From contig CM034547.1 of the NCBI GenBank assembly GCA_020055645.1, positions 31,496,513 to 31,560,512 on the forward strand: a stretch of 64,000 nucleotides of DNA, in the 5' to 3' direction. Positions 9,718-43,145 of this stretch are shown piece after piece; positions within the stretch are counted from its first letter, which is position 1, and the number at the start of each line of letters is the position of its first letter. This stretch comes from Tomocerus qinae. Its lineage: Eukaryota; Arthropoda; Collembola; Entomobryomorpha; Tomoceridae. The notes below the pieces were generated by a model. That model did not search any database. It was not told where the DNA came from and saw nothing but the letters and a program-made list of their open reading frames with translations. Both the position numbers and the translations under genes were made by a program.

Positions 9718-11984
9718 TTAGCTGGAACATGCTTCGTAATCAATGTGGTAAGAGTTTGCTGCATCAAATCCCAGAAAATGGACATGCTCCAAAATTTTAA
9801 CAGCGTCTTCATCTTCTACGTTTTTCTGTGTTGAAATGACGGACCAACTCTTTTTTGTGTCAGAACCATCCGCATCATGATCGTGGCATAGAACAATCAC
9901 CCAAAAACTTTTATTGTCACTTAGTGTGAAGTAAATGTTGGTCTCAACAACTGCAAACAGATTTTTAAAAATTATTTTCATGCAAAGGCATAGCAGAAAA
10001 TGTATTAATATTTTATAATTTACCCTTATCTCCACTTGTGTTGTAAATTATTGTGCAATTTTGATATTCAAAAGTATTATCGTGACTATTGCATTTCATA
10101 GATGCATTTTTTCCACCGAAACCAAACCATGTTCCATCACTCTCCCCAATTTTTGGTTGCCAAATAAGCCGTGGACAGAACTGTGACAAATCGTCTTCCG
10201 CTGTTAAAGTTTTATTTAGAAAAAGTTCTGCAACTTGGTAAGCTTCAAATTTAGTCTTGAATGGAATGTAAAATCCCCCTCCAGGCATGGCATCCAGCAG
10301 CTGATGTAAAAATGGTAGACAATTTATACAATGATAAATATATTTTTATAATGTTATTATTAATTGATACAAAAAAATTTATATGATGCTCAAAGAGCAT
10401 TTTCAGCATAAAGAATATTTTTTAAGGCCTGGACAACTTGGATAACGACCTAAGTGCTGTTGTCTACACCTACGTGCAACATTCAGAAATAGAATTTCAT
10501 GAACATGAAGATAATCGATTGCAATGAAACAGAAAAAATTGATTTTCATGAAACAGAAAAAATTGATTTTCATGAAACAGAAAAAATTGATTTTCATGAA
10601 ACAGAAAAAATTGATTTTCATGAAACAGAAAAAATTGATTTTCATGAAACAGAAAAAATTGATTTTCATGAAACAGAAAAAATTGATTTTCATGAAACAG
10701 AAAAAATTGATTTTCATGAAACAGAAAAAATTGATTTTCATGAAACAGAAAAAATTGATTTTCATGAAACAGAAAAAATTGATTTTCATGAAACAGAAAA
10801 AATTGATTTTCATGAAACAGAAGAAAATTGATTTTCAGGAAAAAGAAGAAAATCAATCTTCATGAAAAAATAAGAAAATCAATCTTCATGATAAATAAGA
10901 AAATCTATTTTCAGGAAAAAGAAGAAAATCAATCTTCATGAAAAAATAAGAAAATCAATCTTCATGATAAATAAGAAAATCTATTTTCATGAAAAAGAAG
11001 AAAATCAATCTTCATGAAAAAATAAGAAAATCAATCTTCATGGTAAATAAGAAAATCTATTTTCATGAAAAGAAGAAAATCAATCTTCATGAAAAAGAAG
11101 AAAATCAATCTTCATGAAAAAAAAGAAAATCAATCTTCATGAAAAATAAGAAAATCAATCTTCATAAAAAATAAGAAAATCAATCTTCATTAAAGCCAAG
11201 AAAATTGATTTTCATAAAAAAGAAGAAAATCTATTTTCATGAAAAAGAAGAAAATCAATCTTCATGAAAACCAAGAAAATTGATTTTCATGAAAAAGAAG
11301 AAAATTTGTTTTCATGAAAAATAAGAAAATCAATCTTCACGAAAGCCAAGAAAATTGATTTTCATAAAAAAGAAGAAAATCTATTTTCATGAAAAAGAAG
11401 AAAATCAATCTTCACGAAAGCCAAGAAAATTGATTTTCATAAAAAAGAAGAAAATCTATTTTCATGAAAAAGAAGAAAATCAATCTTCATGAAAACCAAG
11501 AAAATTGATTTTCATGAAAAAGAAGAAAATTTGTTTTCATGAAAAATAAGAAAATCAATCTTCATGAAAAATAAGAAAATCAATTTTCATGAAAACTAAG
11601 GAAAGCAATCTTTATGAAAAATAAGAAAATCAATTTTCATGTTCGTGAAAAAGGCATTGGTTAATTCCTAGTTAAATTCAATCAATGGAAAAAATCAATC
11701 ACCATGAATAAAGATGTATTGTATTTAAATTATATTATTAAAACAATTGATTTGTTTTCGAGAAGATTCAGTTAAACAATTCTCCTGAAAAAAATTTGTA
11801 GTATTCATTTTTGATATTTATTCATTATTTAGTAGTATTAGTTCTTTGTTCTTACTGACTGCTGGGTTAGATTTGCCAAAGTTGGAACGATGCATTCTCC
11901 TTCTTCCACTGTATCTTTCAAAGCATTAGTACCTTGAAAAACTATTGCAAAAACAATGATGTTTATAATGCTAAATGAAACCAT
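9718..11984 (-). CDS. Divergent lipocalin, secreted
   Basis: Three exons on the minus strand (11856-11984, 10024-10300, 9718-9950) join in phase to 211 aa. Exon 1 encodes a signal peptide (residues 1-20, ending near GTNA) and a short mature start with one Cys. The distal part resembles the apolipoprotein D/insect lipocalin pattern: a Tyr-Phe-Thr-Leu strand, FWVIVLCHDHD, then KSWSVISTQ, a helix (DEDAVKILEHVHFLGFD) and a final Cys five residues from the expected end. The first lipocalin signature (G-x-W) is not obvious. Such proteins bind small hydrophobic ligands outside cells. Assignment rests on the C-terminal half and on the size; a lineage-specific secreted protein with a lipocalin fold is the realistic alternative. 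The long first intron carries the minisatellite at 10514-11650. Confidence 0.6.
10514..11650. repeat. 24-bp minisatellite, with degenerate extension, in lipocalin intron 1
   Basis: About a dozen almost identical 24-bp units (GAAACAGAAAAAATTGATTT plus TCAT) run from about 10524 to 10820. To about 11650 they become variable units of about 26-28 bp, alternating AATCAATCTTCATGAAAA and AATTGATTTTCATGAAAA. Because the period is a multiple of three, several frames stay open on both strands. These are not genes. Confidence 0.9.
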
Positions 11985-12878: not shown

Positions 12879-13768
12879 TTATTTTTTATCCTTCTTTGGC
12901 ATAGGGAAGGTCATATCAAACATAGAAAAATTCTTGAAGATATCCTCTGTAAAATATACAATTAAAATTACCGATGAAATACAGTGACATTCGAAATTTG
13001 AAGTCACGGATCACCAAAAATAAATGATACTCAAACACGTGTAGTCTTCATTAAGCCAGTTTGATGTTGGTTGTTGGTATAATAGAAATGAATAATGTAT
13101 AAGAAAAGCTCTGCTGATTAAACTATTGCATTATTAAAAGTAAAATGTATGTAAATGTTCTTTAAATTACTTAGTATTTGGCCGTTGAGTATCATTTACT
13201 CTAGATACCTACACATTGCAATTACATGTACTTAACATTAATAGGCGAACTTAACTTACTTGCGACAGGTCCAGGAATATATTGCTTCGTAATATATTCT
13301 GCAGGGTATATACTCGTTGGAATCGAAAATCTCAGATATTTAAACATAGATTTAGGTAAATCGTACAAAAACAGATCCTCTAGAAAAAGAAATTCGGAAA
13401 GCACATTTGATTGTGTTGAACCAAAGAAAAGATACTGGCTGAAAGTGTTTGAAACATTATCTATTTTTCTAACCCATAAAGTATGATCCGACTCCATTTT
13501 TGTTTGCATCGATGACATGTGGACGACACTTCAGGAAAGTTATATCCGAACTGTTTCCAACTTTATCATTCTTAGGGTGAACGTGGTACATTGGTATTCC
13601 ATTGCATGCATAAGCACATTCTTGAGCTTCTTCACGATTGGTAGCAATCATAGCACATTCCTTGCATTTGTCTGTCATGTTACTTTTAACAGCTTCGACA
13701 TAATCGCAACCTTTATTGCGAACAAAACATGAAACGAAACAAGTTATAAAAAGAAATTCAAACTTCAT
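12879..13768 (-). CDS. Secreted cysteine-rich protein A of a local four-gene family
   Basis: Exons 13474-13768, 13260-13379 and 12879-12946 join in phase (both introns phase 1) to 160 aa. The signal peptide covers about residues 1-20. The mature part holds one module: CKEC, 12 residues, C-x3-C, then NGIP (C-x-G-x-P), and a later Cys. A Cys-poor, Pro/Tyr-rich tail ends in a basic PKKDKK. I do not recognise the family. The module recurs in the next three genes, which are in the same orientation, so this is a local tandem expansion. The protein is presumably extracellular; no enzyme motif is visible. A divergent PAN/apple-like fold is possible from the C-x3-C-x-G-x-P pattern but unproven. Confidence 0.75.
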
Positions 13769-14050
13769 TTCTATAAGTGGGCAACCATTTGAAATATAAA
13801 TATTAGTACTTCAGACCATGACATATAGTCTGCATAGTCTGCAGTATGTCTATAAATGGCGGATAAAGAGTTATAATACTATTATAGATTTTCTCAAGAA
13901 AAAGCGAATTCTCTGGTCTCACATTTCATATTATACTTTCACATAAGAAAACAAAAATAATGAAAACTTTATAGATTTTAGGCTTACACGGTTACACGTT
14001 GAAAAACATTGAAGTACTATTTTACGTAATACATTATTAGCATTCATCAG

Positions 14051-16315
14051 CTATAAGTGTTGGGAGCTATAGTACACTGCTAACAAACTAAAAGTATTGA
14101 GGTATCGTACTATTTATTTGTTTTTATATATTATTTAGCAATGTTGGTTTGACACTAAAACACAGAAGCATGTACTTGAATGAAACTTACCATACCAATA
14201 AGTTGCCCGAAAGCACTTAATAATTTTCCCAAACCATCGCCTGAGAGGGAAACAAAATGTCGGAAATCCGTCACAAAGAGTTGCACAAAATGTAGCTTGT
14301 GCAATATCACGAACAGATGCACATGCACTGCATTCTGGGGGACACAGGTCATCATCTCTTACAAATTCGAACTTTATATCTGAAAGGAAATAACATTGCA
14401 ACGGAGATAACGTATTCAATATGTAAGTCAAGATATCTCTGAATGGAAACTTACTATTTCTGTGACTTTTGCATACTTTATTAATTTAATTATAATTGGG
14501 CAAAACATAATTTTATTTATCATGTCTAGTAACCTTCAGTTTTCAAATTCTCGCAATTATAACATAAGGAACGAGGATGGTCATCTATCCCGGTATAATA
14601 CTTTTTCTGAGTACAAATCGTCCTGCGAGGACCTTTAAGTTCAGAATTCATTCAGCCGCAATTAATGATTGCGATCATGATGATAATGATAAATACTTAA
14701 ATACTTTTACTCTTACAGTCCTCAGTGCAGTCGAAGTATTCCTGTGGCCACTCTAAAATTGAAAAATTTCGATGTGATGCAGTAAATTATAATCACAACT
14801 CATAAAGTATCACATAATGTAATGCTGATGTTTCAGAGATACTTATACATAATTTCATATTACGAATATAGTGCCTGTAAACAATGAAGTTTAGTTTGTA
14901 GAAAAATATGACAAATATTTTAAAGCTTTATATATTGTACTTGTACTTGTAATTAATATTTTTGTAAATGTAATGAGTGAAATTGTATGTATACTGCCAC
15001 ATTCAATATTCTATGGGCTCTTTGCCCGAAAATAATGTTAATAAAACCCCTACATATTGTATTTACCTTCTACTGATTCAGGAATAGTTGGCATATCTGT
15101 ACGTTCAGTGCAATTGTAGCAAAGATCATTTGGGTCAATCATAATATTCGTCCTTCTCAGTATGCAAGAAAGAAAGGATACGGTTTCGGTATCAGATACA
15201 ATGCTTATCTGAAATTGCAGAGATATCATTTGAACATTGTCCAAAATTGTCTATAACCGAAAACTATTTTAAAATGAAATGTATAGCTTTATCTTATCCG
15301 CTGTATTTATCCACAGAAGTGTTAATAATTTTGTTAATGTAATGTCCTTCCAGACAAATCTTTAATTGCTATTCCTTCTTTCATGAACTATAGCTAGGAA
15401 ATACATTTAATACCCGAGCCACGGTTTCAGAAACGATCAGCACTAAAATTTGCAGCGCAGTTGGAATATTTAATAGCAAATACCGGATAGATCGCAAATA
15501 CCGCATTGTAATTGGCTTGAAAAATTGCCGTTGTGGCCAATTAAGTATGTCAATTTGCTGTGTATGTATCCCACTTTCAATTTCACAACTAAAAAGTCCC
15601 AACTGTTTCTTGATTTGAGGCAACAATTTTCATAACATTCATGAACTTATTTTTCATACGAAATTGTCAAATTATTACCAATAAAATAGTATATGGTGGA
15701 ATCACTGAAGTCAGTGTTCATCTTTTGTCCATTATAAATTTACTACTGGTTTTAATTTGGCCCTATTTCTGCTTATTTTGGTAAACAGAAAACTACAGTC
15801 AGCAAAACCCTTTTTGTATAAGACTAAAGTGTTAATTAAATTGTCTCCCTGTCATCCAACGAGGTGGGGACATTGAAATCAACATATTTTAGTAGAATGG
15901 CCTATGTAGGTACGCTGAAATGCACATTACATATTATTGCTTCCATAAAATTAAAAAGAAATTATTTATAATTTATGCCATTTATTTTGTATATTGAAGC
16001 CTCTATTTTCTCTGTCTCTTTTTCAATTTAAATCAAACATTAAAAGAATAAATAAGGAAATAGGAAAATGCCTTCAAAACCTTTAGCCCTGAGAGAAATA
16101 TCTCCAATGTATGTACTGTTGTGCATTTATGAAAAATCCGCTGTTCTTTATGGCACATTTACTTCCTTATTGTTCCTTTTCTTGCCAATATTTTACAACC
16201 ATACCCTGGAGTCCGGAATGGTATTCTCTAATAGCAATTTATAGGTGATTTGGTAAACCTCAATGTGTAATACCAGAAAAGTACAAATACTTGTTACGAA
16301 CCATCTCATTCTCAT
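14051..16315 (-). CDS. Secreted cysteine-rich protein B, two modules with the first truncated
   Basis: Exons 16205-16315, 15067-15208, 14717-14752, 14191-14379 and 14051-14076 join in phase to 167 aa. Exon 1 is a signal peptide (MRMRWFVTSICTFLVLHIEV). Exons 2-3 hold CYNC and FDCTED, which matches the first module of gene D but stops just before its next Cys. Exon 4 is a complete module: C-x3-C-x2-C, 11 residues, CATLCDGFPTFC. The tiny last exon is weak; if the donor at 14190 is skipped, the frame instead ends after 21 more codons at 14135. A further hidden exon between 15250 and 16200 cannot be excluded. Function unknown. Confidence 0.65.
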
Positions 16316-16691
16316 AAGATGAAAATGCAAAAGAGAATGAGAAAGACGAAACAGAGTGGAAAATAAGTATTCTCTGCAAAAATAATATTCTTTTATACAA
16401 ATAGCTCTAATCCAAGTTTTTAGTTGCAATTCCAATAATAGCACAAAACGCATTTCAATAGTTACACAATAAAATTATCAAAATAAATAACTCGTACAGT
16501 TAAAATAATGTAAGTAGACTAAGACAATAAAATATGCCACTCAAAGCACGCTGATGAATTCCTTTTTTCATGTTTTTAAGGTGTATCTTAAAGGTTACGA
16601 TATCTGCTGGATACTGATGTCCGATTTAGTTAAAACTGATAATGCCATATTCTGGTGCGACACATAGATAGTCATTTTAGTCCGCCCAATG
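16316..16691. other. Spacer between genes B and C
   Basis: Upstream region of gene B and 3' flank of gene C. No coding signal seen. Confidence 0.4.
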
Positions 16692-17894
16692 TCAGTGAAA
16701 TATATTACCCGATAAGGGAGCGTTTTCTAACTCTTCGTTTAGGGTTTCCACAACATCATATTCCCTATCAGTGTCAATGCTCGGTTGATCTTGGAGGATG
16801 ACAGATTTAAGACTTGTCTGGTCACTGTGCAAGGTATCTAAATCCTCTTTCGACAGCTTGAGGAATTTGATAATGTACGGAGGGTAATTGTAAATTTGTA
16901 CAGGCCCTAAAATAACCAATCACATAACTTACTTAAAACTATTTCATATTATGGATATTAAAAAATGCTGAAAAACATTCATTTAAAACTCCATTTGTAC
17001 ATTTGTTGTCTGTAATTTTCACAAACGTAGTTAACTTACCGTACTTATCAAGTCTACATTGGTAAAATGTGTATGAGCTTGTCCCATTATTTCTATTTTT
17101 TAGTTTACTATGAAAGGTGGGTTTTCCATCGCAGTCGGCAGCACATTCTTGTGAGAACATCCAGCGCATATTAACATGACTTGCACAATATAAACAGTCT
17201 TCTTTTAAAAGGTTACTGTCAATTGGGTAGAAACGACATCCTGAACAAAATTAAAGCAAATCATATTTACACTCACCAATTTTCGAAAAATAAAAAAATT
17301 CTCTTTTGTGGAAAGTGTGAAATCCATGTACATATATGATTGCATTCTCATAGTAGTCACAAAGAGAATTAAGGAATGACTCAGCTTGTGTGGCCAAATT
17401 ATACTTCAGTAGCTAAAGATCGCTATACTCACTCGTGGCATCGCAACTCATGAATTATGGACACATTGGTGCAGTAGATAGTTAATTGACCATATTTAAG
17501 AATCGAAGTAAATACAAACCATATAATCTCGTTGCTCGATAACATATCCTTTGCAGAAAACGAGTTTCAGGAGGATAGCAAAATGTAGGATATCCTCTAC
17601 ATTGTACCGCACAATCTTGAGCTGTGGCAAGATCGGCTTCCAAAGCACAATTTTGGCATTCGACTGGACAGACATCAGAAAGACGTGTTAAAGCGAATCT
17701 AATTCCTGCAGAAGTAAAAGGTACAATATATTCTACATTTTTATATCAGGATAAGGATTTGCGACAAAATCCGAATGTAAGACTCGGCACACAAGCACAC
17801 CTCTAGTAAACTGTCTCCCTAAAACGTACTGAACTTTGTCATTAGCAAATATGTAACTGTTTGACAATAGTGCTAATAGTGCTAATTTAATCAT
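16692..17894 (-). CDS. Secreted cysteine-rich protein C, two complete modules
   Basis: Exons 17801-17894, 17520-17705, 17040-17240 and 16692-16906 join with all introns in phase 1, giving 231 aa. The signal peptide is MIKLALLALLSNSYIFA. Exon 2 carries module 1: CPVECQNC, 11 residues, CAVQCRGYPTFC. Exon 3 carries module 2: CLYC, 13 residues, CAADCDGKPTF, and a later Cys. Exon 4 is a Cys-free acidic tail (75 residues). One module per phase-1 exon is the classic arrangement for duplicating extracellular domains. This is the most complete member of the family, and a TATA box lies upstream of its start. No known function; secretion is inferred from the signal peptide. Confidence 0.8.
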
Positions 17895-17959
17895 AGTAAT
17901 TTCATCTACTATAGTACTTACCGCATGACACGAAACTCAAAAGTCACTGTACATTCCAC

Positions 17960-17967
17960 TTTTTATA
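17960..17967 (-). promoter_or_regulatory. TATA box of cysteine-rich gene C
   Basis: TATAAAAA reads on the minus strand 66 bases before the start codon at 17894. This predicts transcription start around 17930-17937 and supports the chosen first exon. Confidence 0.55.
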
Positions 17968-18215
17968 CGCTAACTCCGCATGTAACTTTTACCGCGTCAT
18001 AATTTTTTTCGTGTTAAAATTCTGGTAAAAGTACAGGGGAAAGGTTTATGTGGAGTTTATATAGAGAAAGGAGAAAATACTAAAACAAGGATCTTTCATG
18101 GTAATCGGTAAAATCTAATAAATAAGCGTTCAAAAATCCAGTGGGTATTTCAGTCTAGGTTTTGTGACATTTCGAACGATAAAAGTATTCGTTTTTGCGT
18201 ATTAAGTCAGGACAG

Positions 18216-19177
18216 TCAGGAGTTAATAGGAATGCTCTTACGTTCATTGTTTGCTTGTCCACATTGGTAGCACTCTGACATCCATTTACCGGCTACATAA
18301 TTAAGAAAATCATTATTTAATTTAATGCCAACATAATTTTACCTAATTACTTATTTTGTGGTAATACAGAGGTTATAGGAACTTGTGCTATGTATACATC
18401 TGCAGGTTGCATGTACAATAGACATTTTGTTGACAGAAAGGGTGGTATGTGTTGACAAAAAGGGATCCCAAAAAAATTGTTGACAGACAAAAAGGTGTCC
18501 TTCCAAAATACATTAAACATTATATTATTATAACGACTCTTTTAAGCCTTTACCTATGTGATATTTGTAGTCCGTACACAATGTAGGTCGTCCACATTCC
18601 TTACTGCAATTTTTGAATCGCTGCTTGTCTGCTCACAATATTAAAATCATATTGATTAAATTATTGCTGTTATATACTACAACACAATTACACCATATAC
18701 ACAGTATACTGAATTACGTTATTCCAGTCGTTATTCACACAGTAATGAGATGACAAACCTTTTGCTCTGAAAGGTACATAATTTGTAGAATTAGAAGCAC
18801 ACATGGTACAACGGTCATTTTCTCCTGAGGTATAAGTGAATAGTTTATAAATGCAACCTGCAATATAAAACGTGTAGACATTAAAAAAATTACTGAATGT
18901 ATAGCTAACATCCTCTTATGTAGCAATTAATTGGATCGTAAATAAAACATTACAAATTAGATAGATAGATTAATATTATTTTTACCTTCCCATGTAATAG
19001 TGCGTGATAAAGTTTCAATTTCAATCGATGTCTGTAAATTTAGCAATAAATGAACAATATATAAAAAATTCTTCAATTTGAAAGGTAGGGAAAAATATTT
19101 CTCTAACTTACCGATGCTGTGCAGACACCCAAAAGTGTATAACTGCATAAAATGTAACTGAAAAATCTACTGATCAT
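18216..19177 (-). CDS. Secreted cysteine-rich protein D, second module truncated
   Basis: Exons 19112-19177, 18986-19031, 18759-18857, 18554-18628 and 18216-18292 join in phase (first intron phase 0, the others phase 1) to 120 aa. Signal peptide MISRFFSYILCSYTLLGVCTA. Module 1 is split over exons 3-4: CTMC, then NCSKECGRPTLC, so the usual C-x-G-x-P is shortened to C-G-R-P. Exon 5 begins a second CxxC (CYQC) but runs into a stop 12 residues later, as if a two-module ancestor like gene C lost its end. A good donor (GTAAGA) sits inside this last exon, so a further exon is possible. Confidence 0.65.
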
Positions 19178-19286
19178 TTTTCTTTAGAAATATTTACTGT
19201 ACGAATGTTTGAAGCAAAATAATATCAGTGTTTTGTAATGTTGTTAACTGTAACACAAAAAGATCCTAATTTATTATTTCAATGTA

Positions 19287-20353
19287 CAGTATGTATTGAA
19301 AGTGGGTATACATAGGAGTTTATAGGTATACATAGAATTTTAGTATCCATAGCACTTTCATTGTTAGTATACAGTACACAAGTTCAATTTGCAATTTTTA
19401 CCAGCCAATTATTAATTCATTGTTCGTCTCTCTTTCCTTCTTTTCGCAATAAACAATGCGTTGTTTCAATCTGAAGAACTCAATATGGATAAACTGTCAA
19501 TAAGTGAGCGAAATGAAATTGTAAAGATGCGGACAACAATGTCGTTACGAAAGGTGGCTGAGGAATTCACTATCCTGGAAAGACAGCATCAGAACAGTAG
19601 CGGTTACCACAGATCATAATGATCATGATCACTTGATCATGATCATCATGGTCACTTGATCATGATCATCATGGTCACTTGATCATGATCATCATGGTCT
19701 CTTGATCATGATCATCATGGTCCCTTGATCATGATCATCATGGTCCCTTGATCATGATCATCATGGTCCCTTGATCATGATCATCATGGTCCCTTGATCA
19801 TGATCATCATGGTCTCTTGATCATGATCATCATGGTCCCTTGATCATGATCATTATGATCAAGTTTCATCTAACCAATTCCTAAATTGTATGGCGTAATG
19901 TGGGGGACCACCGTCTTGCTGAAACCAAATGTTGTAAGGATCCACTCCCTTAGCATCCAATTCAGAAATCAAAAAATTGTCTTCCTACTTTTGGTAAGTT
20001 TTTGACGGAACCAGTCCTATCAAACCGAGCTGTTATGATGCTAACTGTCTTTCCCGGATAGTGAATTTCTCAGCCTCCTTTCGTAACGACATTGTTGTCC
20101 GCATCTTTACAATTTCAATTCGCTCACTTATTGACAGTTTATCCATATTGAGTTCTTCAGATTGAAGCAACGCATTGTTTATTGCGAAAAGAAGGATAGA
20201 GAGACGAATAATGAAATAATAAAAGGTAAATCTGGCTGGTAAAAATTGCAAATTAAACTTGTGTACTGTATACTAACAATGAAAGTGCTATGGATACTAA
20301 AATTCTATGTATACCCATAAACTCCTATGTATACCCACTTTCAATACATACTG
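19287..20353. mobile_element. Foldback Tc1/mariner-like element with about 300-bp inverted arms
   Basis: The arms at about 19287-19590 and 20040-20353 are near-identical inverted copies starting CAGTATGTATTGAAAGTGGG. TA flanks both ends (19285-19286 and 20354-20355), as for Tc1/mariner target duplication. Each arm carries a start of a transposase-like reading frame (MDKLSISERIEIVKMRTTMS). The centre holds a minus-strand fragment near 19890-19985 reading WFQQDGGPPHYAIQF, the second-aspartate motif of IS630/Tc1/mariner transposases. No full transposase survives. A 24-bp GATC-rich array fills the rest. Confidence 0.8.
19617..19860. repeat. 24-bp GATC-rich tandem array inside the foldback element
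   Basis: About ten copies of TTGATCATGATCATCATGGT plus CMCT. Each unit contains the self-complementary TGATCATGATCA, so either strand can form many small hairpins. Confidence 0.9.
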
Positions 20354-20716
20354 TATATTTTAATGATTTTAATGTACATTCCACTTTCCACTTGTACTTT
20401 TGTCGTAACTTCAGCAACTCAACCGTGATAGTAGAAAAAGAGTTAATTATCTACCTGATGTGCTGTAGGTAGTAACTTATGAAATTTTAAACACTTCCTG
20501 AAGATTACAGTTAGCATTTTTACGAGGTTCATAAATATCAAGGACATAAATGAATACGCTATTTTTATGAGATGATTTCTTTGTGAAGCCACCCTACAAG
20601 CCCTGCATATATATAGTTCTCCATAATATTATTATACTAGGTACAATAAAATTGCTTCATGTGTTTCATGCATATAATAAATAGGCTGGCTATAATTTAA
20701 AAACATTCCAGACAAA

Positions 20717-23700
20717 TTACATATCAATACTTTGAAAAGTATACTCACTAGCTCCATTATTGATGGCACTAATTAAAGATTTTTTAAAAGTTTCATAATT
20801 TTTGTGATTTCTTAGGCAGATACAATTTATACGATTTTTATTGGAAGTCGGAAAGCCTCCAAAATCGTCATCAACTATGAATTCAACCTTGAAAGGTGGG
20901 TTTAGCTCACTGAAACATCCAAAAGGGAGAATTGAACTTCCAGTAGTAAATTGCAGAAGCCTTCCTCTGTTGTCTGAGGACATTTCATTCACTGCTTTAG
21001 CATACCAATCCAATATTTTCTTTTCAGTACAAGAAATATTGCTGTAGTTTGAATTGTAGCCAAGCATATCTTCTATTGTGTAAGAACTGGATCCACATAA
21101 TAATAGCTAAATTACGAAAGAGTATAAAGTAAATTAAAACCTGGATTTAGTCCCGAAACACAAAGACAAAATTGTATGAAATTATTATTACTTCCAACTC
21201 ATTCTCACTAAAGATGAAAAAAGAATCCAGAGGAATAATTTCCCCGAGTCCTTGAAGTATCCATCGAATTTCTGTCTTCATTCGTTCTGCAAGTCGAAAA
21301 CGGGCTAAAGAGTTGAGGTAGTAAAGCTTATTTTCGTTCGTAACTTTGATTTGTGATCCATTACGAATTATGGCTACTTTTTTAAGACTCGATGGACTTT
21401 TTAGCGATGTTTTCCTTTCATCAACTATATCCGTATTCTCTACATCTTCAAAATATAAATTCATATGCGTCACATCTTTTGACAGAATTGTGCAAATGTG
21501 GCTTCTGTAAAACCCTGGATCATCCTTTTCAAAATGCTTTGCGATTAAAAAGGTAAAACAGAAATAATTATTTCATAAAATATGTTTTCTAATTTATCAA
21601 TTTTAATCCTTTCGCATAATTCTAGTATTGAAAATAAAAATCAAAGTACTTTGTAATTTGGTTGCACACCAAGTATTTGTGAGAGAAAGGACCTGGCGAA
21701 TCTTGCATTTAGAGTTTGAAAATTGCCAGTGTATCCTCCAATACAATATTCAAAAATACACTTTCCAATAATTTGTCCGATTAATTTCCAATAATTTTGA
21801 TACGATGTTAAATCACTTAAAGCACAGTTTCCTGGATGCGGATGAATCAAAAGAGTTTCTCCTACTGGCACAAATAGTCCTATATAGTTGCCCTCACTAA
21901 CTTTGGAAAATTGGAACATTTCCTTGAACGAAACTTGAAGCCATTGCCTCAAAGCTTTATCGTAAGACATCGTTTCATTTCTAAGCGTTATAATAAAAAG
22001 TGTCTTCCATTCCTCACTTGTAAACAGTTTAGTGCATTGGAGCGTCTGAAATTAAATTATTTATATAATTATATTTAAACTACTCAATTGATTAAAATAT
22101 TTTTTCTTGATTTGATAAGTTATTAACTGCTAAGAAGGCATTTTCCCTCGAGATTTCGAATTTTTTTATGTGTCTGTCTTTTGAAATACTAGTGCCTATA
22201 TGGTTTTGAATTTCTTTGAAGAAACTGTTATGCTTCTCTAGGAACCTTTCTTCTCCATCTAATACCAAGAATTCGAAACAAGAACAAATTAAATTGATAA
22301 TAAACTACATATTATTTCCAAAAATATTGTTCGAAATCTCAAGTATTTATTTTAAAAATGTATAACATTTTTTCCATACCTGCATGGTTGAGAATTAGCA
22401 CAGAAAATATTGCCACAAATGTTCTTAAATCAGAATAACCCATTTCCAATTTAATAATATCTTTTTCGCTCTCAGTGTTTACCATTTCAAAAACAACCAT
22501 GTCCGTTTTTGAATTGTGAAAGAAAGAACAAATATGAATCTATATGCAAAGCAATAACGAAAATTACATTGGTCTTCTGGGGTGGTACCTAAACTATGGT
22601 ACCTAAACGCTCCTTTTCAGAGGGCATTGTTTTGAAACGTACAATTCTCTTGGTAGATACCTTTGCAGTTTATTTCTCTTTTTCTATGCAATTTGTAATT
22701 TTTAAAACTGCTGAAGTTTTTATTTTTAATTCTTTTCTTTAATTCCATCAAGCATGAACTCGGTATTTGACTTTTGTACTGAATTTCATTCTATAACTGT
22801 CATTATATCTATTACCTTGCAGTTCAAGTTGATCGAAAAAGCATATTTTATATCGGGAATTGATTTGAAGGCATCAGAGAAGCAGTCTTGTATGTATATC
22901 GTTGAAGGTGTCAATAGCAATAGGACTTCAGTTTTTTTCGTATTCATCTGACAGTTACTTCTGCATGTCCGATCAAGAGTAAATGGTTTCAGTAAACCTA
23001 TGTTCAAATCAAAGCTCGGTTCCTCTTCCAATAAAGTGGCTTTATATTCCAGAGGACAAATAAATGCTTTGCTTTTAACATCCGTGATTTGGTGATCCTC
23101 TTCTTGAGTGACACATACGATGATGAAATTGCAATTGGGCAACAATACATGCTTGTACAGAAGTACTCCGTGAAAAATTCCCGGTTCCTCTATCTCAAAC
23201 TGGACAACTACATCTGCAGGTGAAGACTTAGGGTCCGGACCAATGAGGGATCCTTTTATATGCTCAATATCATGGGAACTCTCCTGCAAAGAATTTGATT
23301 AGATTACTATGTTTAAATTACATAAATACTGCAATTTGCAATGTTATGCAACAATCACTAATGCAATCAACTTAAATGAGGATTAACTTAGTATTATTAT
23401 ACTGTACATGCTTAAATTTCCAAGTTAATCTTGAAATATCGATTTTATTTCCATTTATGGCATTTCCAAATCTATCTTTAAGATTTACAGTCAATTTGCA
23501 AGATGATCTCCGTCCAGAAACACAAAGAAATGGCACCAATCCCCGTAGAATAGATGTCGTTTCAATTCCCAATTCATTCTCGGGCAGAAAATATTTCCTT
23601 ATGGGGCACACAAACATTTTCTCTCCATTTATGTGCACATAAATGTTGTATAACCCGGCCTTTTGAGGCACAAACGAATAAATTATTTCATTTTCTCTGA

Positions 23701-25051: not shown

Positions 25052-26520
25052 TTAAGATTGTCCATGTTCTCCTTGGGCAAATTGAAAAATCACAATCATA
25101 TATGTTACAAGAGCCCCAAGTATCTGTAAAAATGAAATATGCATTTTGATCTTTAGGTTAGTCATGTACTTTGTGCAAAAATCTACTACTAAATACGTAA
25201 ATTGTTTGAAGATTTACGTTGAGAATGAGATTCCTTTGGATACTGAAATACTTTCCGACAACTGCAGGCTTTATAGAGATCCTCGTGCTGATCATATGAA
25301 TCTGTACATTAATAAATTGTGATCAATAAATAAATCCAATTAAAAAGGTATAATAAAAAAGAAACCACTTCTCAGAACTTCCAGAGACAAAGGATTTTGA
25401 TAAAATTCCCTATACGCAAGGAATAAAAAATGAATTATTTCCTTTCTGTTTAAAATCGAACCTTGAAACACATTGGAACAGAAAGACAGTTTAACGGCAT
25501 CTTTTCCAAACAATTTCCTAGTGATTGTAGATTTTCTGTCAATCGCGATGATTCATGGCAAATAAAAATGATATTTATAACAAAAATAAGCCCAGGCACT
25601 GCGTTAGTCAGCACAACAAATGGACTGACATCAATAAAAATCGTAATGCAAACTAAAATAGTGATTCCTGAATTAAACATTGTTAACAGAATATCCACCA
25701 CCATTAAGTTACAAAACACTGAATTGAACTCCGAAACGATCTCTTCTAAATCATCTAATATTTGTAGAATTTCTTGTAATTTATTTTCCAATTCAAAGTG
25801 GCTCAGTGCGTAGATACTGTTCAACGCTAATCCTTCTCGAATGAATGAAGCTCCAATGCTCATCAATTTCAGTAGATACAATAGAAATACAGGATAAACT
25901 GTGTGCACCAACACTAGCAGGGAAGTTAACAGCATTGCATTTTGTATTAAGAGGCTGGTGTTTTCTTCCCCTACTCCCATAAATATTATTCCCATTCTTT
26001 GAAATGTGAATCTTAGCATTATAAACAGAATACCGTGAACATATACAATTACTATAAATTTAAGGCTTTTATGGACTTTGTCCAAACCATATCTAAATTT
26101 GCTTTCAAATTCAGAATTTTGCAAAGAGCACAGAATAATGAAAAACCTAACGATATTCTTCCAAAGTTTTAAAAACTGTTTTTTGTAAATTATGATTTCG
26201 GAATTAATGTAAAAATGTAATATCCACTCCACAACAATCCACGCATTAAATGCAGAACTTTCCACTTTTCCTGTTACAAAATCTTTTTGGTCCTTTCCTG
26301 ATCGCAGATTAAAACAAAAATAAATAGGATAGCTGATCTTACACAAAAGTGAAATTAGTGATATTATGAAAGGAAAAGAACGCCAATTTGATTGCAGGTG
26401 CATTTCATTTGAGATCCGCACTGATGATAAAGGCAAATATCCGGTTAATTTGCAAAATTTAACAGGCCAACTCCCAATTTGAAGAAGATATTCTTCCATA
26501 TTTTGATCAGATTTTCTCAT
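25052..26520 (-). CDS. Gustatory receptor family protein 1
   Basis: Exons 25462-26520, 25218-25301 and 25052-25123, both introns phase 0, give 404 aa. The large first exon encodes several hydrophobic helices and a conserved loop (LEEIVSEFNSVFCNLMVVD). Exon 2 encodes an internal segment ending in a helix start (VVGKYFSIQRNLILN). Exon 3 is the last helix with TYMIVIFQF, the hallmark T-Y-hydrophobic5-Q-F of insect gustatory receptors. Members are ligand-gated ion channels with seven membrane helices and a cytoplasmic N terminus, sensing tastants or contact chemicals. It is clearly a tandem duplicate of the next gene. The ligand cannot be read from sequence. Confidence 0.9.
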
Positions 26521-27037
26521 AACTTAAAACTCAATTCTATTTTCTACTTTGAGTAGGAACAGTAGTTAACGATAAAAACGTTAAAAAAGTCAATTTAGAG
26601 AATCATAAGTTAAAATAGGCTTAAACTTTTCCAAATTATGCGCTACTGATAGACTTAAAGATATTTTTGGGAGTTCCTTAATATGAATGAAATGCGAGTA
26701 GACGGAAGGAGTTCAATGTCGGTATATGTTCCAAAAAATTCAATTTGTAAAGTTCTTTATTATTGTAATAATAAATTAATGCCTTCAGCTCAATCTGCAG
26801 AACCCATTTAATTTTTTTCCTAATAATGTAGTCATGAAATAATAGCCACCTCCCTCTTAGTAAATAGTAATGTGTGCTGTTGTTTTCGTTGCAAATTGCA
26901 AAATCGAATTCCAATAATTTATTTCGTTTGTAATCAAAACTTAATAACAATAATAACGGTTAGTACTGTTATTGTCACTAACAAGTGACTTATGACTGAT
27001 ATAAATAGCACAGTATGACAAAATATAGCATAGGCTT
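26521..27037. other. Intergenic between receptors 1 and 2
   Basis: A 90-codon minus frame at 26678-26950 has no hydrophobic or domain pattern. Presumably holds the promoter of receptor 1. Confidence 0.4.
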
Positions 27038-28888
27038 TCACGATTGTCCATGTTCTCCTTGCACAAATTGAAAAAGTACAATCAGATATGTTACAAGAAC
27101 TCCAAATATCTGTAAAAATGAAAAACATTGTTAAACAAAAAAATATCTGCAGATATGCAAATATTTTGAAGGGATTACATTGAGAATACGATTCCTTTGC
27201 ACACTGAAATATTTCCCAACAACGGGAGGCTTTACAGAGATTCTCGTGCTGATCATTTGGATCTGTACATTTAAATGGTATTCATTAAAGAAAAATAACC
27301 CACAAATACAGGATATAGACAAGAAGAGATAACTGCTTTGAAAAGTTACATGAAACAACTCATACTCTCATACTACTGCACTCATCGTCAAAATTATCCC
27401 GAAAGGATTCCTAATGTCAGCAAATACTCAAATACTACGAGCGAAAGCTGAGGTATAAAGCAGTGGGTATAAAGCATTCTATCGCACAATCTTAGCTGTC
27501 AGAATAAGTTTTTTTTATTAATTCAATCCAAGAACTATTCAAAAGTGTCGGTCAAAAATAATTAAAAATTAGTATTCATTAATATCTGATATTAGTAAAG
27601 ATCTATTTATTTAGAAGTTTTTAGGTGCAGGGGAATGTAATACACTTTAATAGGAAGATGTACTTCAATCATAAATTCATCTTCATCCTTATAGTTGGCA
27701 ATATTTGTGTCAAATATTCCAGTAACTTTAAGACATTGGGTTATTGAACAACAAAGGAAAGAAACCTGAAATGGCCATGCACATGCAGTGATGATTATTA
27801 GCAAACGCATTTTTGACACAAATCGACAATATTAATAGAAGTCAAGAACCCACAAGAACCTTAAAGCAAAATGGAACTGTGAGATAGTTTAAGGGCATCT
27901 TTTCTAAACAATTTCCTATTGATTGTAGATTTTCAGTCAATCGTGATGCTTCATGGCAAATAAAAATGATATTTAGGGCAAAAATAATTACGGGCATTGC
28001 ATTAATCAGTATATCAAATAAATTGACATTGCCAAAATTTGCAATACAAAGTAAAGTTGTTATTCCTGAATTGAACATTGTTAATAGAATATCCACCACC
28101 ATTAAGTTGCAAAACGCTGAATTAAATTCCGAAATGATCTCTTCTAAATCATTCAAGAGTTGCAGAACTTCTTGTAATTTATTTTCCATTTCAAAGGGAT
28201 TCAGCTTGTAGATATTTTCCGATTCTTGGTAAATGTAGCAAGCCGCTGTGCTGATCAATTTCAGAAGAAATACCACAAATATAGGGTAAACTGTGTGCAC
28301 CATCACCAGCAAGGTGGTTAACAACATTACATTATGTATATAGAGGTCTAAGTCTTGTCCCCCTAAATACTTAAATATTCCAATTCTTTGAAATACAAAT
28401 TTTAGCATTATAATTAGAATACCATGAACATATAGAATCACTACAAATTTAAGTTTTTTATGGACAATGCCCAAGGTATTTCTTAATGTTTCGAATTCAG
28501 CGTTTTGCATAATAGAGCACAGATTATTATAAAATTTAATGATATTCTTCCAAAGTTTTAAAAACCGTTTTCTGTAAAATAAAATCTCAGAATTAATGTA
28601 AAAATGTAATATCCACTCTATAATAACCCAAGCATAAAATGCTGAGCTTTCTGTTTTTCCTATTCCGAAGTCATTTCTCTCCTTCCGTAAGTGCACAGTA
28701 ACACAAAAATAAATAGGATAACCTATCTTGCAAAGAAATAAAATCAACGATGTTATGAAGGGATAAGAAAACCAATTTGTTTGCAGCTGCACTTCATCTG
28801 AAATCCGCACTGATGATAAAGGTAAATATCCAACCAATTTGCAAATATTTATAGGCCAACTCCCAATTTGAAGAAGAGTTTCTTCCAT
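27038..28888 (-). CDS. Gustatory receptor family protein 2
   Basis: Exons 27860-28888, 27179-27262 and 27038-27109 (introns phase 0) give 394 aa. The architecture and much of the sequence match receptor 1: IGSWPINICKLVGYLPLSSV near the start, the SEFNSAFCNLMVVDILLTMF segment, and the last exon TYLIVLFQF followed by the same EHGQS end. This indicates a fairly recent tandem duplication. Intron 1 (597 bases) is longer than in receptor 1 and contains a meaningless 70-codon frame. Confidence 0.9.
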
Positions 28889-30338
28889 AATATTTTGATC
28901 AGATTTTTTGCCAACTAAGTCAAAGTGAAATTTAATTATTGTATTTACCTTACTACTACTACAGCACTAACTTTCAGAATAGTTAATATTTTTTACAGTT
29001 AGCTGTTGTCTGCTTAAAGTTTACTCTAGGATGAAATATGATAACTCATTTGTAAAAAGTAATTCTGTATTGTCATAATAAGAACGTCTCTTTTCCAAAC
29101 CAAAAAGTTATTAGTATCCTTTAATTTTCATCCCAAGACCACCTCCTCCCTCAAAGCAAATACATCTAGTATAACAGGTATTAACTATAATTTTGCTTCC
29201 GTTGCAAAAGCCAAGTTCAATATTTATTTTGATAATTTATTATGTTCATTACTATACTACAATCAAAAATCTTGTACCGTTATTGAAATTACGGATCCGA
29301 TTCATTCATGCAGCTATTACTATGTGTAACATTTTTCTAGCACACTGTATCTGCTAGATTTCAGCTAGTTTTAGTATATATATGATATGCGTTTATATGT
29401 GATATTTATTTATTATCACTATCACACTAATCAGTAATCAGCCTATAGACGCGGCCACTACATGACTTTATTTATAGTTTTCTAAATTACTGTGGATGAA
29501 AGAAAGGCACCATACTGAGCATTCTGTACAAAAATGATGTTTATTAGGTTAAAGTTATGCAACACATTGTGTACAAAGAAATTAGCTTGTTATAGAAATG
29601 CAAAAATGTCTGAAAATGAAAAAGATAAAGTATTTCCAAGCAGTGTCACATTTATTCAGTGCACAGGCCAAATTATATGTGCTAAAGTATATTAATCAGT
29701 ATTCAGTATTCATACAGTAATTAGCAGGCTGATCGGCTAAAACGGCTGTCTAAATTGGCCGAAAGGCTAGTTGAAAACCTGTTAGCCAGTGGCAAAAATG
29801 GAGTTGTGTGTACTGAGAAAGGTTTGGCGCAAAAAAATATGATTTTTGGCCATTTCGGTCACTATAGCCATTTTAGCCGGTCAATGTCATTTTCAGCCAG
29901 CAAAAATGGAACGTTCAATATTCCACAGATGTGTAGGTAAAACATCCATATAGAATTAAAGGACCATTAAACATAGGGAATTTGGGTGTGAAAGTTTTTA
30001 TAAAGTAGCCAAAAGCTCATAATTATTATGCATTTACCTTAATATCGTGGCTCGAGTGAACAACATAAAACAGCAAGGTTATAAAACGCAAAATATCATG
30101 ATGCTTTCATTTAAATTACTCTACATAACATGTAATGTAAATGGAGTTTCATTAGTCATTATACTTGTACTTCGTAGAACATTTTGAGACTACTATAATG
30201 GAATGGTACAAATCAATATTTTCAGATATTTAGCTTAGCAATTCAACATTATAAGGATGCTGGATCTGGGTTTACATACTTAGTATATATTGTTGATTAT
30301 GTTGATATGTTGATACACAGAAGTCACAAAAATAATGA
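28889..30338. other. Intergenic between receptors 2 and 3
   Basis: About 1.4 kb, AT-rich, with a small inverted-repeat element at 29733-29882. No gene seen. A 61-codon plus frame at 29755-29940 lies mostly in the element. Confidence 0.45.
29733..29882. mobile_element. Small inverted-repeat element (MITE-like)
   Basis: The left end TCGGCTAAAACGGCTGT and the reverse complement of the right end CCGGCTAAAATGGCTATA match, with an inner GGCC block also inverted. About 150 bp, no coding content. I could not identify a target duplication. Confidence 0.5.
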
Positions 30339-31980
30339 TTAAGTTGATTTCTTTGCTTTGTTAACTTCTGAGTTCCTAAATTGTACCAAAACGTAAACCG
30401 CAGTCGCTATTATGCTGGACACCTGTAAAAATAAATTTTCATAATACTTTTCACCAACATTGCCACACATTATGGAGAAAATGTCAACAAATGGTGTTAC
30501 ATTGTGCTAAGAAATTCTCCTGCTTCTGCTCCAAAAGCAGGCATTTTACATATTATTTCTTGTCAATGTATTATCACTATGTATAACATGGGATTTTTTA
30601 CCGATGCTAGAAGCTGTCTATTTAGTGTAAAATATTTTCCAGGGGCTATTGTAGGCGGATGTATCGTCGTAGTTGTAATGAAAGCTTGTATCTGAAAAAG
30701 AAATAAATTTGTGCCTGAAAGTACTTAGATGGGATGAAATCCTAATTTTCCGAGAAAAATATAGATTTCCCCAGATATGCACTTACTTTTGTACAGAGAC
30801 AATTTGTGTAGAATTCCATTGGTATTTTCTGCAATGTGACTAAAACATTTAAAGAACACTCTGTAAGAAAGGTTGCGTCCGTTGAAATTTGGTAAAGAAG
30901 CAATCCATACTTAATGATAATAGCGGCCAGTAAATAGAGAGATATCTTGTGTCCGAAAATATATAGTGCGTAAACATTAATTAAAATTTTGACAAGACAA
31001 ATCAATAGTTCAGCTACTAGAGATGTGCTATAAAACATGTTAAAATTTTGAACTTGTTCTTTAGTGCAGTGAAATAAATCTAAAAGTTTATTTATCTTTT
31101 GTTCCAAACTCTTTTTATCTATATCATAAACAGGTTTTGATGACCCACTGACGTCAATTCCTTCTAATATGTTTTTCACACACTGAACTTCAAGGTTTAA
31201 ATTCCGATTGACAACTACCAGAGTGTCATAAATTGTTCGAAATGCCGCTTTGTAAAATCGAGTTAAGTAAATGAGCCACAAAAATTGACACACATGTATA
31301 TTTCCCACGACGAGAAATACAATATTGAATATAAATAACATGCTTTTGTTCAATTCTATGTGATCAATCGGTTTGGGTAGGTTAAATAGATCCACAGAGC
31401 CGACTATAATTAGGACAACAAAAAAATAGAAAAGGAAAACATCATTTCTACTTTTATTCTTCAATTTCTTAAAATGGATAAAATCGATGGGAGCAGTTGT
31501 TTGACACTCATCAAATTTCTTCATTAGTGCTACATTCTGCTGCCAAAATTGCAAAAGATTTTTGCGAAACAAAAGAGTCTTCAGTTTGGTAAAAGTAAAT
31601 ACTCCTGCAAGTAAAAGATTGCCATACTCATATAGCAGCAAATCATTTTGATCAACTTGATCTTTGCTGTCTGGATTGATGTTTTGCATGATTATAAAAG
31701 TAACAAAACAGTTTTGCACCAAAACTATAACTGCTACCAAAGTTAAAATACATGTGTATATGAAAATTGTACTATTATGTTTCAAAGAATTCCCTAATTT
31801 TCTACTTTCCGACAAACACACTGGAAAATAACCACAAATTTTCATAGAAGCTAGTACCCATGTTGAAAAGTCTAATAATTTATCCTCGCTGATATCCAAT
31901 TCTTGAAAGCTTGTCGGTGAATTTGATTGAATTTCTAACGACATGCCAAAAGGTTTTGAATTTCTTGGAATTTGAAACAT
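30339..31980 (-). CDS. Gustatory receptor family protein 3 (divergent)
   Basis: Exons 30787-31980, 30602-30691 and 30339-30422 (introns phase 0, same positions as receptors 1 and 2) give 455 aa. The first exon encodes six or so hydrophobic helices and an extra internal loop with a SGSSKPVYDIDKK stretch. Exon 2 ends TIAPGKYFTLNRQLLAS. Exon 3 holds AVYVLVQFRN, a variant of the T-Y-hydrophobic5-Q-F signature with Ala for Thr. It is much more distant from receptors 1 and 2 than they are from each other, but shares the intron layout. Confidence 0.88.
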
Positions 31981-33785
31981 TTTAACTTCATAACAAACAC
32001 AATCTTACATAATTTAAAATCATGTACCTGAGATCTCAACAGTAAATGAGAGCCCCAATAAGTATTACCTATTATAACAACACAACATAAGTATTTAGGT
32101 CTAGGTCTACAGGATCTTATAATAATGCAAAATAAATATATTATAAATGGATAACAATTTTAAGTGATTACTGTATACTTTTTAGTTTTCCAATTTCCAA
32201 TGCCTATCATGTAGGGCGTAAGGTATAGTGGAGTGGGTCTGGGACTACATTAACTTAATACATTGTCATTAATGTTAATAAGATACATAGTAAGGTACAT
32301 TAGGTAATATATTAACAAACAAATGAGACATGTTTTTCTTAGGCTAACAAACCCAACCCAAATCAACCTAACTCTTAAAAAGTAGATGTTAGTAGGAAAG
32401 CATTAATTGTTACATTAATATCCAATTTCCATCCATATGGTCGTAACAGGCAATTTTTATAAAGCTACATCAACTAAAATTTTTAAAATGTTATGAACTG
32501 TCGAAATATTTATATATAGACGTATCTTAAGGACGGAAGTATCGGAGGAAGATTCTTATGAAAAGGTATAGGCACCCTCCATTCCTTTGCTCATGCGTGG
32601 CGCGTAAGTAAATGACCAAAGCCACGCCGGGGCGTAGGAAGCTGTATTTTAAAGCACACTTAATGCTAAAAAATTAATTCTGGTCAACATATGAACATTT
32701 TGAAGATATTTTTGTTCCTACAATGATTGCAATAACGAGCCAGTATTTTTAAAAAACATTTCATATTTTTATGATTTAAAACATGGAAGATAGCATTTTT
32801 CATGCTCAAGCTGGCGAAGAGTAGGGCCGCCCCAACGTGTGTTTTGTAGTATATACATTGCGCGCTTTTTGTGGCTCACACTCGCAATAAGGTTTCAGAA
32901 TAGAGGATCCCTATAAATATCCTGAGGCAAATACTCATACAAGTCCACTTCTATTTTGTGAGCGAGCAGGCATAGCATGAGTATATACTAGTTACTAGAG
33001 TATTATTATGTAGTTTATGGCAAATAAAAATGTCACGCTCAAGCATTTATAAATGTCTAGTATGAACTATCATGTCTTGAGATCATGTCCACCCCTCACC
33101 CACCCATTTTGAAGCAACGTTTTATAATGCGATTCCCTTCTTTACCTCCACTCCAAAAAGTGCTGCAACAATTTAAATGATTAAATGCCTTTTGTGACCG
33201 CTCTGCAGGATATTTTCAATAAAGATTGACTTGTCGTCATTATATTTTGAATAATTTTGTCCGTGACTGCTAACCGTATTACACAGCGCCATGTCATAAT
33301 GTCATAATAATAATTAATTGTGGATTCTGCATGTATACTCACTGTCATTCGAACATTAATCATTCAAACTCATCTTTTACATAATATCATCACAATCATC
33401 ATCATCTAATCGAATGAATGAGAGATTGAGGTGATACTATGAATGAGAGTTAAAGAGTTTGTAATTTGAGTATGACAGTATGAGAGAAACATTGAATTTC
33501 AATCTCATTTTGAACTTTGATTGAACATGAAGTGGCATAGGGCTGACACAAACAAGACAAGACAACATGTAACAGTAACGAAAGTCCCATGACCACAGAA
33601 GATACATGCTAGGACATCTGTGTGTGAAATTAGTAGGTTACCGGCAGCTTCCATGCTGGAAAGTGGTGGAGGCGGTGTTGTTAGAATATCAAGCGTGCGG
33701 TGAGTGCAGGTCAGATTTTCGGTTTCAGTCTGTTTGGTTAGGTCCGTCAACTAGATAATATTTCTGGCAGAAATATTTTAAAGAA
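31981..33785. other. Divergent intergenic region between receptor 3 and RpS9
   Basis: About 1.8 kb between a leftward and a rightward gene, so it should contain both promoters and the RpS9 5' untranslated exon. No coding exon or clear core promoter is identified. Confidence 0.4.
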
Positions 33786-40932: not shown

Positions 40933-41284
40933 TTTACATTTAAGATATTTTCTGATCCAGTTCTAATTGAAACAAATATTTTATTACACCGAATCAATAA
41001 AACATTCAATTTGGCTTTTATGAAAGAAGTGTTGAAGGGAATTTAGCCCTGATTCAAGCAGTACATCAGACATTATAATATTATGAGCAACCTTTGTAAT
41101 GGTTTTAATTTTAAATGCTTTAAGACAACAATAAGGAGATGAGTACACCCTATCCATCTTACATGACCAATTACAAGAATTCTTCAAAACGAATTATCGG
41201 AAGTACTAGGGTACATAAAAACTACTAAACAAATACTATAAAACTGTACTAAATCATTGTATAATGTAAAAATTCATTATCATT

Positions 41285-43145
41285 TTTCATGAAAATTCAC
41301 TACAGCATTTCACATGAAAATTCATTCTATCGTTTTCCATGACAGTTCACTACAGCTGTTTACATGAAAATTCATCCTATCCTTTTCCATGAAAATTCAC
41401 TCCATTCATTTTCCATGAAAATTCACTCTATTCATTTTCCATGAAAATTCACCACATCATTTTCCATGAAAATTCACTCTATTCATTTTCCATGAAAATT
41501 CACCACATCATTTTCCATGAAAATTCACTCTATTCATTTTCCATGAAAATTCACCACATCATTTTCCATGAAAATTCACTCTATTCATTTTCCATGAAAA
41601 TTCACCACATCATTTTCCATGAAAATTCACTCTATTCATTTTTCCATGAAAATTCACCACATCATTTTCCATGAAAATTCACTCTATTCATTTTTCATGA
41701 AAATTCACCACATCATTTTCCATGAAAATTCACTCTATTCATTTTTCATGAAAATTCACCACATCATTTTCCATGAAAATTCACTCTATTCATTTTTCAT
41801 GAAAATTCACCACATCATTTTCCATGAAAATTCACTCTATTCATTTTTCATGAAAATTCACCACATCATTTTCCATGAAAATTCACTCTATTCATTTTCC
41901 ATGAAAATTCACTCTATTCATTTTCCATGAAAATTCACTCTATTCATTTACCATGAAAATTCACCACAACATTTTCCATGAAAATTCACCACATCATTTT
42001 CCATGATAATTCCCTACAGTATTTTAAATGCAAATTCCCTATATTATTTTTAATGAAAATTCCCTACATTATTTTTAATGAAAATTCCGTACATTATTTT
42101 TTAATGAAAATTCACTACAGTATTTCACATGAAAATTCATTCATCGTATTCCATGAAAATTCACTACAGCATTTCACATGAAAATTCATTATATCATTCT
42201 CAATGAAAATTCACTCTATTCATTCTCTATGAAAATTCACTCTATTCATTCTCTATGAAAATTCACTCTATTCATTCTCTATGAAAATTCACTCTATTCA
42301 TTTTCCATGAAAATTCCCTACAGTATTTTAAATGAAAATTCCCTAACCATTTTCCATGAAAATTCCCTAACCATTTTCCATGAAAATTCCTTACATCATT
42401 TTCCATGAAAATTCCCTAACCATTTTCCATGAAAATTCCCTAACCATTTTCCATGAAAATTCCCTAACCATTTTCCATGAAAATTCCCTAACCATTTTCC
42501 ATGAAAATTCCCTAACCATTTTCCATGAAAATTCCTTACATCATTTTCCATGAAAATTCCCTAACCATTTTCCATGAAAATTCCCTAACCATTTTCCATG
42601 AAAATTCCCTAACCATTTTCCATGAAAATTCCCTAACCATTTTCCATGAAAATTCCCTAACCATTTTCCATGAAAATTCCCTAACCATTTTCCATGAAAA
42701 TTCCCTAACCATTTTCCATGAAAATTCCCTAACCATTTTCCATGAAAATTCCCTAACCATTTTCCATGAAAATTCCCTAACCATTTTCCATGAAAATTCC
42801 CTAACCATTTTCCATGAAAATTCCCTAACCATTTTCCATGAAAATTCCCTAACCATTTTCCATGAAAATTCCCTAACCATTTTCCATGAAAATTCCCTAA
42901 CCATTTTCCATGAAAATTCCCTAACCATTTTCCATGAAAATTCCCTAACCATTTTCCATGAAAATTCCCTAACCATTTTCCATGAAAATTCCCTAACCAT
43001 TTTCCATGAAAATTCCCTAACCATTTTCCATGAAAATTCCCTAACCATTTTCCATGAAAATTCCCTAACCATTTTCCATGAAAATTCCCTAACCATTTTC
43101 CATGAAAGTTCACTTTTCACTTTAATAATTAACATTTTTCATGAA
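41285..43145. repeat. Large minisatellite, CATGAAAATTC units
   Basis: About 1.85 kb. The left part alternates about 24-27 bp units such as CATGAAAATTCACTCTATTC and CATGAAAATTCACCACATCA. The right part (about 42345-43105) is about 30 units of CATGAAAATTCCCTAACCAT plus TTTC (24 bp), the last two dozen identical. Frames up to 208 codons on either strand are artefacts of the 24-bp period. Confidence 0.95.

Follow-up and report, generated by a model that had tools for sequence, protein, structure and literature searches.

Novel secreted proteins of aphids are reportedly expressed in symbiont-bearing cells. The partial text of PMC3574423 ties them to symbiosis and describes them as orphans that lack relatives among other sequenced organisms. 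The cysteine-rich antimicrobial peptides, springtail diapausin among them, are secreted hexapod products present in several gene copies, and diapausins follow the pattern C-x3-C-x9-14-CC-x9-11-C-x6-9-C in 39-64 mature residues (PMC10051947, partial text). PAN/apple proteins are extracellular proteins built with cysteine modules, and the conserved cysteines of HGF are numbers 70, 74, 84 and 96 (PMC9249922, partial text). Here we describe a locus of cysteine-rich modules in the springtail Tomocerus qinae, found in 64,000 bases of contig CM034547.1 (assembly GCA_020055645.1, positions 31,496,513 to 31,560,512), hereafter "the window". The locus probably consists of two adjacent copies of a single longer gene, produced by head-to-tail duplication, each encoding a protein that is about 315 residues long and probably secreted. 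The pair can be likened to the aphid proteins by description, as orphan secreted proteins, and not by sequence (PMC3574423, partial text). With the antimicrobial peptides it shares putative secretion, richness in cysteine, hexapod origin and more than one gene copy (PMC10051947, partial text); it differs from diapausin in having three modules in about 290 residues and no adjacent CC. Diapausin identity was considered and rejected: the C-x3-C-x9-14-CC stretch is absent, and none of the 21 cysteines in either protein adjoins another.

The modules run from 19177 to 12879 on the minus strand, where an earlier note on this DNA had placed them. That note had divided them among four tandem genes, named D, C, B and A in the order of transcription. 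The exons of D and C, and those of B and A, join in frame at GT-AG sites into two genes of eight exons each, whose modelled products, open throughout, have 313 (D+C, gene 1) and 315 (B+A, gene 2) residues; all 8+8 modelled exons have GT-AG introns and keep the frame. Of the earlier description, the tandem arrangement, the probable secretion and the richness in cysteine are retained, and the number of genes is revised, since the parts join in frame and their cysteines match one to one. The claim that introns are mostly in phase 1 is confirmed: in each joined gene the first intron is in phase 0 and the other six of the seven are in phase 1, as is common in secreted multi-module extracellular proteins (PMC1626468, partial text). 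The modelled exons are these:

19112..19177, minus: gene 1 (D+C) exon 1, start and presumed signal peptide, phase-0 end; hydrophobicity modest (1.69)
18986..19031, minus: gene 1 exon 2, spacer, phase-1 end
18759..18857, minus: gene 1 exon 3, first part of module 1 (C..CxxC)
18554..18631, minus: gene 1 exon 4, middle of module 1 (CxxxC)
18242..18292, minus: gene 1 exon 5, end of module 1 (CYQC); phase-1 donor GAAC/GTAAGA, 7/9, spliced to 17705
17520..17705, minus: gene 1 exon 6, module 2
17040..17240, minus: gene 1 exon 7, module 3
16692..16906, minus: gene 1 exon 8, C-terminal tail and stop
16259..16315, minus: gene 2 (B+A) exon 1, tentative signal peptide, phase-0 end; donor 4/9, with a rival exon at 15506-15405
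15067..15208, minus: gene 2 exon 2, spacer and first part of module 1, equivalent to gene 1 exons 2-3
14717..14752, minus: gene 2 exon 3, middle of module 1 (CxxxC)
14534..14632, minus: gene 2 exon 4, end of module 1 (CYNC), equivalent to the end of gene 1 exon 4 plus exon 5
14191..14379, minus: gene 2 exon 5, module 2; donor ATG/GTAAGT, 8/9
13474..13710, minus: gene 2 exon 6, module 3 (the earlier gene A); donor 5/9; a rival start is the in-frame ATG at 13768
13260..13379, minus: gene 2 exon 7, first part of the tail
12879..12946, minus: gene 2 exon 8, end of the tail and stop; AATAAA at 12793

The products of the two genes align by blastp at 3e-38, with 89 of 278 positions identical, over a stretch that begins in the signal region and ends where the tail starts. 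When only the N-terminal parts are aligned the score is 110, compared with a mean of 29.5 (sd 5.4, maximum 55) in 500 shuffles. Outside the signal region, which has two further cysteines in D+C and one in B+A, both proteins have 21 cysteines, and these align one to one; among 255 aligned codons, 22 of 22 cysteines match. Fifteen of the 20 inter-cysteine spacings are equal in the two proteins and the other five are off by one or two. The spacing across the D-to-C junction, 18, is the same as that over the matching intron of B, and the spacings at the B-to-A junction, 8 and then 13, are those found over the matching intron of C. The donors at these disputed junctions score 7/9 and 8/9, respectively. 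Because the 21 cysteines align and the spacings hold over both junctions, we conclude that one gene, comprising a signal region, three cysteine modules and a tail, was probably duplicated once. A stretch of the tail, Y-x2-P-x4-K-[FY]-L-[KR]-[FL]-S, is also found in both proteins. The sequence between the cysteines has diverged between the two copies. A dN/dS run gave dN of 0.71 and dS of 5.1, so that synonymous sites are saturated; the gene copy is therefore old, and the fast evolution proposed earlier cannot be demonstrated from these values.

Both joined genes carry three modules, which contain 8, 7 and 6 cysteines, respectively; the idea that the copies differ in module number is withdrawn. 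The earlier counts, one and a half modules in B and two in C, imply that the exons on either side of the matching introns of B and C had already been joined there; if so, B and C represent overlapping portions of a single architecture. A six-frame scan of the window gives four occurrences of the pattern C-x2-C-x(8-25)-C-x3-C-x?-[GR]-x-[PR]-[TM], all at this locus (minus-strand positions 17658, 17196, 14332 and 13666); 60 windows shuffled by two-base block permutation give none. The C-x3-C-x-G-x-P motif that all copies were said to share is present in modules 2 and 3 of both genes; module 1 has C-x3-CGRPT in one gene and C-x3-CPRRT in the other. Modules matched by position are strongly alike (z of 11.7, 23.2 and 12.6 for modules 1, 2 and 3), and because they pair by position there is no sign of shuffling after the gene duplication. 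Module 2 also resembles module 3 (z of 6.6 to 7.7 in four comparisons), suggesting that these two probably arose by an internal duplication that predates the copying of the whole gene; module 1 may be older than both or unrelated to them.

Several observations weigh against the interpretation of the locus as two copies of one three-module gene. Module 1 is only weakly similar to modules 2 and 3 (z of -1.1 to 3.3 in eight comparisons; hhalign, 1.3%), and its introns do not fall at the same positions in gene 1 and gene 2. The tails are weakly alike, with a z of 2.0 and a score that was reached by 15 of 300 shuffles. Some splice sites are poor: the gene 2 signal exon has a donor of 4/9 and a rival at 15506-15405, the donor of gene 2 module 3 is 5/9, and the acceptor preceding the module of A ends in AAG. 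D has the weakest of the four signal regions on a crude hydrophobicity scale. No AATAAA was found within 700 bases of the gene 1 stop, and the AATAAA sequences at 14517 and 14118 come after stops that an unspliced B would meet. A TATA-like box and a shared 15-mer suggest, finally, that C may also start by itself. Polyadenylation signals are weak evidence in either direction, as AATAAA occurs 110 times on the minus strand of the window; in favour of two genes, one lies 86 bases past the gene 2 stop.

The sequences that bear on a separate start of C are the following:

17801..17894, minus: candidate alternative first exon ahead of module 2, the start assigned to C in the earlier note, with TATAAAAA upstream
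17948..17962, minus: 15-mer AAAGTGGAATGTACA, upstream of the candidate C start
20373..20387, minus: second copy of 15-mer AAAGTGGAATGTACA, upstream of gene 1 and beyond an inverted-repeat element

The case for keeping four genes treats them as two two-gene units, in which D and B encode upstream and C and A downstream secreted proteins, each with its own start. C would then begin with the signal-like exon downstream of TATAAAAA, and its upstream region shares with that of D an exact 15-mer, AAAGTGGAATGTACA, which overlaps the TATA-like box TATAAAAA and is present in two copies in the window and six in the 334-Mb genome. A has an in-frame ATG and a hydrophobic stretch directly ahead of its module, and the AATAAA at 14118 is about 20 bases past the stop of B if B is not spliced to A. 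Signal peptides were judged from hydrophobicity alone, and by the rule used for these exons (ATG to GT, phase 1) the window contains 22 signal-like stretches on the two strands (13 and 9). Since such stretches are common by chance, the candidate start of C does not restore four genes. The earlier claim that every gene has its own signal peptide is accordingly weak: hydrophobicity is 1.69 in D (the lowest), 2.58 in C, 2.47 in the chosen exon of B and 2.44 in A, and the exon of B has the poor donor and the rival already mentioned. The intron of gene 2 that matches the one holding the C start is 154 bases long, with no C-like first exon seen inside it; moreover, under four genes B would have no tail and D would end at module 1. 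The cysteine spacing over the junctions is also exactly conserved. We regard four genes as quite unlikely.

A compromise, rather unlikely in our judgement, keeps two full-length genes and adds to gene 1 an internal promoter, which would yield, in addition to the three-module form, a secreted form with two modules (C). It draws on the evidence for the C start (the signal-like exon, TATAAAAA and the 15-mer) together with everything that supports the joining of D to C. Against it stand a short promoter match, an unproven spacing from TATA to start, and the lack of any equivalent seen in gene 2. A promoter scan ahead of C, designed for bacterial promoters, returned nothing.

A different question is whether the module belongs, as a very divergent member, to the PAN/apple domains, with the protein acting like multi-apple adhesion proteins; a divergent PAN/apple domain had been named as the nearest known pattern. 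The strand, helix, strand, strand order predicted for the module models seems compatible with the PAN fold. In its cysteine spacing, module 2 reads C-x3-C-x6-C-x11/12-C, close to the core of PAN domains from this genome and of HGF (PMC9249922, partial text). The core used for comparison was C-x3-C-x(7-9)-C-x11-C, and four genomic PAN domains, when aligned, have four invariant cysteines, the first of them reading C-x3-C-x7-C-x11-C. The spacings of module 1 are x3, x5 and x14/16, and module 3 has no third core cysteine. As a positive control, Pfam PAN_1 was found at 12 places in the same genome at E<=0.001, none of them at this locus, and comparisons by hhalign with four of these 12 places gave 0.3% for the profile of modules 2 and 3 and 2.2% for that of module 1. 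The modules differ from PAN/apple proteins in lacking a profile match (none in Pfam at E<=10 for joined proteins or one-exon modules), in the extra CxxC ahead of the core in every module, in the missing third core cysteine of module 3 and in the lack of a match between the module models and any solved fold. PAN/apple membership is not supported, and we consider it very doubtful, even if the two could have a fold in common. Six of the 12 PAN_1 matches form a cluster at G000:C3:49377771-49383391, and one of these has five internal stop codons.

Models of modules 2 and 3 were built from four sequences only and are of modest confidence (pLDDT 65 and 78, respectively). Their secondary structure runs strand-helix-(helix)-strand-strand. 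Searches of PDB folds matched neither model to a solved fold. Against a viral library the module 3 model had 160 matches at E<=10 and none at E<=0.001, the best 50 of the 160 being examined.

Sequence searches likewise placed the modules in no recognised family, in agreement with the earlier note. Neither the joined proteins nor any of the four one-exon modules matched a Pfam family at E<=10, with the proviso that HMMER filters discard most matches above E 0.1. When all six modules were submitted, module 1 included, the single match was the Trim66 B-box at E 5, which is chance level. NCBIfam, which is oriented to prokaryotes, gave nothing for the four one-exon modules. Searches of PDB sequences found no match for D+C, weak and unrelated ones for B+A (NDUFB7 at E 0.038 and an HIV V1V2 scaffold at E 0.55), and unconvincing ones for the six-module profile (RPC10 at E 0.12) and the four-module profile (mouse urinary proteins near E 1). 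Viral contigs scanned with one module produced 5 pattern matches and 0 relatives. Among the papers listed in a literature search, no title or abstract opening describes the module, which does not imply its absence from print.

The window's own assembly (334,443,149 bases in 115 contigs) was searched for further members. Module 2 was found at 2 places (E<=0.001), module 3 at 2 (E<=10), and the joined proteins at 10 and 10 (E<=10). Four genome searches revealed no further copies outside this locus, although only the best candidates were scored and distant copies could escape. The family is a modest and apparently orphan one, and its gene structure is corrected here.

The sequence itself shows the homology and the reading frames; splicing, secretion, disulfides and binding we infer. 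One gene would have been copied head to tail to give gene 1 (the exons of D and C) and gene 2 (the exons of B and A), modules 2 and 3 being related to each other and already distinct by that time. Each putatively secreted product of about 315 residues would consist of a signal peptide, a short spacer, three cysteine modules and a C-terminal tail. From this anatomy we infer secretion and a fixed scaffold in which disulfides probably hold the 21 cysteines that lie outside the signal region. The modules would provide a stable scaffold, and the variable surface would recognize a partner, which might be tissue matrix, a microbe or a signal. The likeliest role, suggested by the class of protein, would be that of an extracellular binding protein braced by disulfides. 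The odd number of cysteines (21 and 21), which depends on where the signal peptide is cleaved, points either to a single unpaired cysteine or to a partner joined by a disulfide. A bolder and tentative proposal is that the module is an undescribed disulfide-rich extracellular domain of about 60-80 residues, with a CxxC-x(11-22)-CxxxC core and a strand-helix-strand-strand order, which would occur three times in a lineage-restricted secreted protein whose 21 conserved cysteines would force a disulfide-linked partner. Should the two-gene structure hold, it would correct a model that automatic annotation might divide in the same way, and it would offer a clean paralogue pair for the study of an unassigned cysteine module. 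It might add a domain family absent from Pfam and a candidate lineage-specific secreted protein; by itself it opens no major question.

The inverted-repeat element upstream of gene 1 (19273-20367) has arms of 135 and 178 bases that are 96% complementary, and a 23-base tandem array (19612-19857) lies inside it. The element lies about 95 bases upstream of the gene 1 start, between gene 1 and the upstream copy of AAAGTGGAATGTACA. HECT ubiquitin-ligase exons adjoin the locus (20720-22051, minus). Farther away on the minus strand are a chemosensory receptor-like open reading frame (ORF) at 30745-32004, which falls just below the cut-off for 7tm_7 (25.9 vs 26.6 bits), and ORFs at 27845-28966 and 25453-26523, of 374 and 357 residues, which are similar by eye and have no Pfam match. 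An open frame of 1388 residues (53046-57209, minus) is rich in charged residues by eye and has no Pfam match at E<=0.01. AT-rich tandem arrays occupy 10487-11641 (25-base units) and 41281-43111 (24-base units). No Rfam families or tRNA genes were found in the window.

Elsewhere in the assembly, COX1 is followed after about 63 bases by COX2 (L005 1432-3774, G000:C1:36669428-36673768), both open with the invertebrate mitochondrial code. COX1-COX2 with a tRNA between them is what we take to be the pancrustacean order; no tRNA was called there with bacterial settings. These mitochondrial frames sit inside a 140-Mb contig, C1, and would be either a recent nuclear insert or an assembly error. Partial copies of COX1 are present near 139 Mb of C1 and on C81, and a short one is on C11.

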